Below are positions 60,024-62,007 of a DNA stretch of 64,000 nucleotides, piece after piece. The notes under the pieces were generated by a model, which was not told where the DNA came from, ran no database searches, and saw only the letters and a program-made list of their open reading frames with translations. The DNA lies in the NCBI GenBank assembly GCA_013822395.1, contig PNKK01000010.1, forward strand, positions 1 through 64,000. Reading direction: 5' to 3'. Positions within the stretch are counted from its first letter, which is position 1. Each line of letters begins with the position of its first letter. Made by a program: the position numbers and the translations under genes. Source of the DNA: Anaerolinea sp. GTDB taxonomy: Bacteria; Chloroflexota; Limnocylindria; Limnocylindrales; CSP1-4.

Positions 60024-60401
60024 GTGATCGACTCGCCGGAACTGACCCTGACGCTCCCCAAGGGTCTCGTCGGCCTTCCGGAGGAGAGGGGATTCGCGCT
60101 CCGCACCGACGCGGGATCGGGCCTCATGGAGCTGTGCTCGACCCGGCCCGGTGGCCTCGACTTCTATGCCGCGCAGATCGATCGGATCCGGCCCGGCCTG
60201 CGCGAGCTCCTGGTCAGCCAGGGCCATGTCGGCGCGAACGATCTCGTCCTCGTCCTGCTGGCCGTCCACGGGGAGCCGCCGGTCCTGACCGCGAATCTGG
60301 CTGGCCCGATCGTCATCGATCCGAACGAGCGGGTTGGCCGGCAGATCGTGCTCGAGGGCGACGAGTTCCCGCTGCGGGCTCCGCTCTCGATCGCCGACTG
60401 A
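60024..60401 (+). CDS. fliW: flagellar assembly factor FliW
   Basis: A 125-residue protein that binds flagellin or, when flagellin is exported, CsrA. Typical segments are LPKGLVGLPEERGFAL and VGANDLVLVLLAVHGEPPVLTANLAGPIVIDPNERVGRQIVLEGDEFPLRAPL. Its stop overlaps the csrA start (TGATG), the common fliW-csrA pair. GTG start with GGGAG upstream. Confidence 0.96.
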   Translation: MIDSPELTLTLPKGLVGLPEERGFALRTDAGSGLMELCSTRPGGLDFYAAQIDRIRPGLRELLVSQGHVGANDLVLVLLAVHGEPPVLTANLAGPIVIDPNERVGRQIVLEGDEFPLRAPLSIAD

Positions 60402-60622
60402 TGCTCGTCCTCACTCGTCGCCAGGGTCAGGTCCTGCGGGTGGGTGATTCCATCGAGCTCCGCGTGATCCGCGTGGAGGGTGACCGGGCGGTGCTGGGCA
60501 TCGTCGCCCCGGCGAGCATCCGCGTCGTCCGGGGCGAGCTGGTCGATGCCGTCTCCGATGAGGTCCGGCGGGCGGCCGGGGCACGCAGCCAGGTCCGCGA
60601 CCTCCTCGAACCGCGACGCTGA
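60401..60622 (+). CDS. csrA: carbon storage regulator CsrA (translational regulator)
   Basis: A 73-residue RNA-binding dimer: MLVLTRRQGQVLRVGDSIELRVIRVEGDRAVLGIVAPASIRVVRGELVDAV. RNA-contact residues at the N-terminal LTRR and the second edge (VVRGEL, where relatives have VHREE) are largely kept; the His before Arg is Val here. Together with FliW it should control fliC translation: the fliC leader 160 bases downstream has a suitable hairpin. C-terminal ~20 residues form a basic extension. Confidence 0.95.
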   Translation: MLVLTRRQGQVLRVGDSIELRVIRVEGDRAVLGIVAPASIRVVRGELVDAVSDEVRRAAGARSQVRDLLEPRR

Positions 60623-60725
60623 GGGCCGCGGTGCGCCGGCCGGACACGGCCAGGACGCGCTGTCGGATCGGCCGAGCGGCAGGTCACGGAGCCGCTGTAC
60701 GCGAGCTCTTCGTGTGAGCAAGCGC

Positions 60726-60754
60726 TTCAGCGGACCGGGCTCACGTCCGATACC
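60726..60754 (+). promoter_or_regulatory. fliC: sigma-28-like promoter of fliC
   Basis: TTCAG (60726-60730), 14 bases, GTCCGATACC (60745-60754). The start codon is at 60829, giving a leader of roughly 65-70 bases. The 206-base gap after csrA holds this promoter and the leader. Confidence 0.7.
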
Positions 60755-60779
60755 CATTGGGACGGGCATTCGCTCCGTC

Positions 60780-60797
60780 GGCGGCATGGATGCCGCC
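60780..60797 (+). promoter_or_regulatory. CsrA-target hairpin in the fliC leader
   Basis: A 6-bp perfect stem (GGCGGC/GCCGCC) holds the six-base loop AUGGAU. An A-N-GGA sequence in a hairpin loop is the preferred CsrA target. A second GGA lies in the AGGAGG ribosome site (60814-60819), 9 bases before the ATG, so a CsrA dimer could bridge both and block translation. Confidence 0.6.
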
Positions 60798-60828
60798 ACA
60801 CAGATCCAAGGCTAGGAGGCCTACTTCA

Positions 60829-62007
60829 ATGGGTGTCCGGATCAACACCAACATCGAGGCGCTGAACGCGCAGCGGAACCTCGGCGCCACGGCCACGGCA
60901 TTCAGCAAGAGCGTGGAAAAGCTGTCGAGCGGCCTGCGGATCAACCGCGCCGCCGACGACGCGGCAGGCCTCGCGATCAGTGAGAAGCTGCGGGCGCAGG
61001 TGCGTGGCCTCAACCAGGCCCTCCGCAACGCGCAGGACGGCATCTCGATGATCCAGACGGCTGAAGGCGCGCTGAACGCAGTCCAGAACATGCTCCAGCG
61101 GGTGCGCGAGCTGGCGGTCCAGTCGTCGAACAGCACCCTGAGCGCGGGTGACCTCACCAGCGTCAACACCGAGATCCAGGCCCTCCGGGCGGAGATCGAC
61201 CGGATCTCCGGCGCGACCGAGTTCAACGGCCAGAAGCTCCTGAACGGCACGCTCGTCGGCTCGCTCGGCGGCGCGACCGCGACCGACCTGGTGGTCGGCG
61301 ACCAACTGGCGACGACCGCCGTCGCCGCTGTCACGAAGATCGAGGTCGAAGGCGCGAAGGCCCAGACCTACACGTTCTCGGGCTCCGGCACGAGCCTGAC
61401 GCTCACCGGCGCGGACGGTGCTGCACAGACCATCACCGTCGGCGCCGCGGCGGCGAACGGGACGAGCGTGCTCAACTTCGGCAACCTCGGCATCAGGATC
61501 ACGATCCAGGCCAACGCGTCCGGCAAGGCCGCGGCGGACATCGTGACCGACCTGACCGCGGCGGCCGACGACACGATCATCGTCAGCGGCAGCGCGGCCA
61601 ACTTCCAGATCGGAGCGAACGCCTCCGACTTCCTCACCGTCAGCTTCACGAAGATGGACGTCGCCGGCCTCGGCCTGACGACAGCCCTCAACAACTTCGG
61701 CACGACCCAGTCGGTGGCCAACGCGCAGGCGCTCATCACGGCGCTCGACACGAGCGGCCAGGGCCTCGCTCGCGTCAGCACCGAGCGCGGCGCCTTCGGC
61801 GCGGTCCAGAACCGTCTCGAGCAAACGATCGCCAACCTCGGCGTCGCGGCAGAGAACCTGGCGGCGTCCGAGTCCCGAGTCCGCGACCTCGACGTCGCGG
61901 CCGAGATGGTCAGCTTCACCAAGACCCAGATCCTCCAGCAGGCCGGCACGGCGATCCTCGCCCAGGCCAACTCCGCCCCGCAGTCGGTCCTCTCCCTCCT
62001 CCGGTAG
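60829..62007 (+). CDS. fliC: flagellin FliC (Hag)
   Basis: A 392-residue filament subunit. Conserved D0/D1 N-terminus (MGVRINTNIEALNAQRNLGATATAFSKSVEKLSSGLRINRAADDAAGLAISEKLRAQVRGLNQALRNAQDGISMIQTAEGAL) and C-terminus (QNRLEQTIANLGVAAENLAASESRVRDLDVAAEMVSFTKTQILQQAGTAILAQANSAPQSVLSLLR) flank a variable centre of ~180 residues rich in Ala, Thr and Gly. Only one flagellin gene is in the window. ATG at 60829 with AGGAGG. It is likely under FliA transcription and FliW/CsrA translation control. Confidence 0.98.
   Translation: MGVRINTNIEALNAQRNLGATATAFSKSVEKLSSGLRINRAADDAAGLAISEKLRAQVRGLNQALRNAQDGISMIQTAEGALNAVQNMLQRVRELAVQSSNSTLSAGDLTSVNTEIQALRAEIDRISGATEFNGQKLLNGTLVGSLGGATATDLVVGDQLATTAVAAVTKIEVEGAKAQTYTFSGSGTSLTLTGADGAAQTITVGAAAANGTSVLNFGNLGIRITIQANASGKAAADIVTDLTAAADDTIIVSGSAANFQIGANASDFLTVSFTKMDVAGLGLTTALNNFGTTQSVANAQALITALDTSGQGLARVSTERGAFGAVQNRLEQTIANLGVAAENLAASESRVRDLDVAAEMVSFTKTQILQQAGTAILAQANSAPQSVLSLLR

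Follow-up and report, generated by a model that had tools for sequence, protein, structure and literature searches.

The fliW-csrA-fliC locus and the fliC leader

The window, i.e., the whole stretch of 64,000 nucleotides that was analyzed, carries a flagellar cluster in the order flgK, flgL, fliW, csrA, fliC, fliS and fliD. It belongs to a Chloroflexota MAG (G000; 2.9 Mb, 70% complete), so that an earlier note on this DNA, which had taken its phylum to be apparently different from that of Bacillus, was correct. Profile matches also confirmed its statement that fliC is immediately preceded by two genes, fliW and csrA (Table 1). The start codon of csrA overlaps the stop of fliW, and 206 bases lie between the csrA stop (60622) and the fliC ATG (60829). 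This csrA is the only copy in the genome. When its product was aligned to the B. subtilis-type CsrA 1t3o and to chain D of 5dmb, a CsrA that was solved together with FliW, the RNA-binding residues L4 and R44 were found to be present, R6 was also kept, and a C-terminal extension was observed, as in FliW-partnered CsrA. The product of fliW matched the solved FliW 5dmb_A weakly (E 0.0031), and a protein search for FliW relatives in genome_contigs returned none. Within the genus the flagellar cluster was seen in this genome only; the 14 other genomes (G091-G104) have neither csrA nor a flagellin.

Table 1. Features of the window locus and ANGGAN hairpins in flagellin leaders of other Chloroflexota families
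Feature	Position or genome	Strand	Sequence or description
fliW	60024..60401	+	PF02623, 53.4 bits, E 2.9e-14; flagellar assembly factor antagonising CsrA
csrA	60401..60622	+	PF02599, 58.7 bits, E 5.6e-16; 73 aa
sigma-28-like promoter (predicted)	60725..60752	+	CTTCAG (60725-60730), TCCGATA (60746-60752)
hairpin A	60761..60779	+	GACGGGC-AUUC-GCUCCGUC; fold, and RNAalifold in relatives
hairpin B, putative upstream CsrA site	60780..60797	+	GGCGGC-AUGGAU-GCCGCC; stem 60780-60785 / 60792-60797 (6 bp); ANGGAN hexaloop A60786-U60791; GGA 60788-60790
hairpin C	60809..60822	+	AGGC-UAGGAG-GCCU; Shine-Dalgarno AGGAGG (60814-60819) and second GGA (60815-60817) in loop
fliC	60829..62007	+	flagellin, PF00669 E 1.9e-46, PF00700 E 1.8e-24; predicted controlled gene
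upstream hairpin	G333		GAGAGA-ACGGAA-UCUCUC
upstream hairpin	G518		CCGGCGC-AGGGAC-GCGCCGG
upstream hairpin	G277		CGGGGA-ACGGAA-UCCCCG
upstream hairpin	G329		CGACACA-AGGGAC-UGUGUCG
Shine-Dalgarno hairpin	G188		CAAAAUC-ACGGAG-GAUUUUG
Shine-Dalgarno hairpin	G347		UCGGU-AAGGAG-ACCGA
Shine-Dalgarno hairpin	G504, G516		UUCAAAC-AUGGAG-GUUUGAA

Most relatives carry TCAAG-N15-CCGAC/T at the place of the window promoter, 77-83 nt before the start. A transcript beginning at 60760 is predicted to fold into three hairpins, A, B (-12.4 kcal/mol) and C (-5.3 kcal/mol). The earlier note had described a 6-bp GC stem that displays A-U-GGA in its loop, together with a second GGA in the ribosome site; its coordinates and letters for hairpin B were exact, structure prediction folded this hairpin, and the second GGA does lie inside the Shine-Dalgarno sequence, but the distance from the hairpin to AGGAGG is 16 bases and not the 17 that it gave. 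Two elements had been overlooked, namely hairpin A, which stands at the predicted 5′ end, directly adjoins hairpin B and has no GGA in its loop, and the hairpin that encloses the Shine-Dalgarno sequence. The two GGAs of the leader are separated by 24 nt. Hairpin B was ruled out as an intrinsic terminator because no U-run follows it. A search against Rfam gave no match between 55000 and 64000 of the window up to an E of 1, and the same search with six loci, the window leader included, gave a single, implausible match in L140.

Conservation and covariation of the leader in the family

Taken alone, hairpin B is weak evidence, since at the composition of the window about 1.1 hexaloop ANGGAN hairpins of at least 6 bp are expected by chance per strand per 64 kb (three were seen on the + strand). 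Conservation is therefore the deciding test. When the GTDB species collection was scanned for an exact pattern, 14 stretches were returned, all of them in Chloroflexi MAGs, which places the genome in the Chloroflexota. In a sample of 107 genomes of the family, 17 have csrA, and when the flagellins of these csrA-bearing genomes were collected by protein search, the leader was found to precede nearly every main flagellin. The conservation of the GGA loop that the earlier note had proposed to check was evident: 16 of the 17 distinct leaders, that of the window included, present A-N-GGA-N in a loop closed by a stem of 5-7 bp, 38-45 nt before the start, against 0.03-0.07 leaders expected from shuffles. 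At the free N position T, A, G and C were all seen, and the distance from GGA to GGA was 21-24 nt in all 16. The odd leader, L025 of G017, has GGUGAC-AGGAA-GUCGCC, in which A-N-GGA has become C-A-GGA with the GGA kept in the loop.

The 17 leaders were gathered with a Shine-Dalgarno hairpin pattern, and for this reason the conservation of hairpin C was judged on the protein-selected list of flagellins. With a UNGGAG loop, it is found in nearly all main flagellin leaders of the relatives, and on that list it is missing only from the flagellin of G056, whose leader keeps CCGC-AGGGAA-GCGG at -37. A second flagellin of G046 (L090:96-170) has an ANGGA hairpin and a Shine-Dalgarno hairpin and no clear in-frame start codon; it may be a decaying gene or the result of a faulty assembly.

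When the window was left out, RNAalifold recovered hairpins A, B and C from 15 relatives. In the named structure of these relatives 5 of the 16 pairs had changed in both partners, hairpin A accounting for four of the five, and 91.6% of the cells were paired, compared with 32-53% when the partner strand was slid. Hairpin B showed one covarying pair only; it is too conserved within the family, so that the evidence for its covariation comes from other families. A covariance model built from the same 15 relatives, window excluded, matched the window leader with 60.5 bits over 60756-60832 (E 6.6e-13 in the window), and the next best match in the genome scored 21.6 bits. Across the class, strong matches to the model fell on flagellin leaders only, and the genomes with weaker ones (L078-L086) yielded no flagellin. 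A 35-bit match in G041 (L077:1164-1235) was set aside as probably due to chance, because it lies in apparently coding DNA after a hypB-like gene.

ANGGAN hairpins in other families and their link to csrA

Among 400 Chloroflexota genomes, csrA was found in 88 and a flagellin match in 46. Many flagellin leaders of the csrA-bearing genomes carry an ANGGAN hexaloop at about -40, with unrelated stems, and other leaders bear the ANGGAN hairpin on the Shine-Dalgarno sequence itself (Table 1). Start codons in these distant families were assigned by rule, and the sites were selected solely on the letters ANGGAN and on where these lie (-36 to -50). Each of the four inner flanking pairs formed in 84-92% of such sites, compared with 44-49% for reshuffled partners, with 4-5 pair types at each.

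The presence of the hairpin follows that of csrA. An ANGGAN hairpin of at least 4 bp was found in 26 of 36 genomes with csrA and in 1 of 8 without it (Fisher p 0.003, a test that ignores kinship), the family of the window being represented in this comparison only by G056 (with csrA) and G045 (without). The genomes of the comparison that lack csrA also lack fliW, and the sole one of them with a hairpin is G440, which is 89% complete. In ten csrA-bearing genomes outside the family, no 4-bp ANGGAN hairpin was observed either upstream or on the Shine-Dalgarno sequence. Three of these ten belong to f13 and have fliW as well as csrA, and hence the rule is not absolute, although absences are soft because MAGs are incomplete. 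The loss of the ANGGAN loop from relatives that keep csrA and fliW, which the earlier note had named as the finding that would speak against it, is thus seen in these three distant genomes; in the family it is limited to L025, where the GGA still stands in the loop.

Several families have peculiarities of their own. The f52 genomes G329, G392, G416 and G350 each contain from ten to more than 20 flagellin-like genes, and most of the f52 leaders inspected have the ANGGAN hairpin. In f21 (e.g., G493 and G473) several csrA copies are found and no flagellin match, so that CsrA must there serve something besides flagellin. In f46 the leaders L158-L162, L164, L168 and L170 are longer, with two extra hairpins upstream of the ANGGAN hairpin and, some 150 nt ahead of the start, a nearly invariant GGUCAACCG that could base-pair with GGAGGCC of the Shine-Dalgarno sequence; these long-range pairs never vary and are therefore without covariation support, and comparison of the f46 leaders with Rfam gave no plausible match.

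Proposed control of flagellin synthesis by CsrA and FliW

How CsrA and FliW control flagellin has been established for a few Bacillota and for Campylobacter. The dimers of CsrA bridge GGA sites that are 10-63 nt apart and block the Shine-Dalgarno sequence of hag; FliW releases them (PMC7652899). The spacing of 24 nt in the window leader (21-24 nt in the family) fits this range. We consider, with a probability of roughly 0.85, that the fliC leader acts as a CsrA operator with two sites, in which CsrA would bridge both GGAs and block the ribosome until FliW releases it. The traits expected of such an operator are found in the sequence: an ANGGAN loop, a GGA on the Shine-Dalgarno sequence, the spacing just mentioned, adjoining csrA and fliW and, in the comparison of genomes, an N that varies, stems with compensating changes and a near absence of the hairpin where csrA and fliW are missing. 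The claim of the earlier note that this is a CsrA-controlled flagellin leader like that of Bacillus hag is thereby supported at the level of sequence. Its label of a complete switch goes further: whereas sites, structure, conservation, linked genes and co-occurrence with csrA are observed here, it is from B. subtilis and C. jejuni that we infer that CsrA binds and bridges the sites and represses, and that FliW releases it.

Some observations count against a CsrA operator. The Shine-Dalgarno loop is UNGGAG and not ANGGAN, L025 displays CAGGA, and the ten csrA-bearing genomes outside the family lack the ANGGAN hairpin. In addition, most of the CsrA ligands selected with the E. coli protein have four contiguous pairs or fewer, and the 6-bp GC stem of hairpin B is stronger, whereas the ligands of C. 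jejuni CsrA had long stems.

The hairpins could instead act in translation or mRNA stability without CsrA, as a stabilizing structure at the 5′ end combined with a thermometer-like Shine-Dalgarno hairpin that opens by itself. Hairpin A, which has no GGA and covaries, the weakness of the Shine-Dalgarno hairpin (-5.3 kcal/mol) and the GGC-AGAGGAG-GCC kept at the Shine-Dalgarno sequence of G291, a genome without csrA, would agree with this, but neither the fixed A-N-GGA loop letters on wholly changed stems nor the link between hairpin and csrA is explained, and we regard this alternative as improbable. Still less credible is a masking of the start codon in which ACCCAUUG (60753-60760) would pair over a long range with the CAAUGGGU found there, CsrA having a secondary role. 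This pairing appears in the minimum free energy fold of a longer stretch, and L010 has a similar ACCCAU; it was rejected because it makes use of promoter DNA, 60753-60760 being part of the -10 region of the sigma-28-like promoter and for the most part preceding the position where the transcript is expected to begin, and because it is absent from most relatives. A chance juxtaposition of a GC-rich hairpin that shows GGA with an ordinary Shine-Dalgarno sequence, which always contains GGA, accords with the number of such hairpins expected per strand and is refuted by the conservation and covariation seen within the family and, beyond it, elsewhere in the phylum.

In the proposed CsrA-FliW mechanism, one RNA-binding face of the CsrA dimer would sit on the ANGGAN loop of hairpin B and the other on the GGA of hairpin C, so that a bridge of about 24 nt would hold hairpin C closed and exclude the ribosome. 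Flagellin in the cytoplasm would hold FliW; once flagellin is exported, the freed FliW would bind CsrA and the message would be released, and flagellin synthesis would thus follow export. The leader hairpins probably give the cell a means of switching off the production of flagellin.

The closest parallel is flaA of C. jejuni, with a sigma-28 promoter, FliW as the antagonist and two stem-loops with GGA in the loop, the second over the ribosome site; these were proven by mutation and footprinting, and the structure of the leader is backed by compensatory changes in relatives (PMC4894983). The flaA leader is 45 nt long, has ANGGA in both loops, and belongs to a genome in which fliW is not beside csrA (PMC4894983), whereas in the window fliW, csrA and fliC follow one another directly, the loop with the Shine-Dalgarno sequence reads UNGGAG, and the 5′ end carries a third hairpin. 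For hag of B. subtilis two CsrA sites about 20 nt apart, A51-A55 and C75-G82, are given (Yakhnin 2007, as reported in PMC7652899 and PMC8523840); shared with the window, where both sites are putative, are the presence of two sites at a similar spacing, the position of the second site on the Shine-Dalgarno sequence and, presumably, the relief of repression by FliW. The window differs from hag, as far as these accounts describe it, in its phylum, its GC-rich stems and the placement of the Shine-Dalgarno sequence in a conserved hairpin of its own. In C. difficile, FliC is under FliW-CsrA control and the fliC leader sites TGACAAGGATGT and CTAAGGAGGG were predicted from similarity to hag, covariation not being given in the accessible portion of that account (PMC8523840). 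A literature search, which left most subscription journals outside, returned no description of a CsrA-FliW flagellin leader in Chloroflexota. The kind of control is known; what is added is the phylum, the conserved UNGGAG Shine-Dalgarno hairpin and hairpin A.

Conservation and covariation, together with the tie to the presence of csrA and fliW, show that the RNA half of the CsrA-FliW circuit extends across Chloroflexota families. A broader and rather speculative view is that the flagellin leaders of Chloroflexota might form an undescribed class of structured RNA, of early origin in the phylum and retained or lost together with csrA-fliW, with the ANGGAN hairpin either some 40 nt ahead of the start or on the Shine-Dalgarno sequence, and with hairpin A adding a role in the family of the window, e.g., in message stability or the ordered loading of CsrA. 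The analysis of the leader shows exactly which bases to mutate and supplies an RNA model that can be used as it stands, and it suggests that the flagellin checkpoint has an earlier origin or a wider distribution than experiments show.
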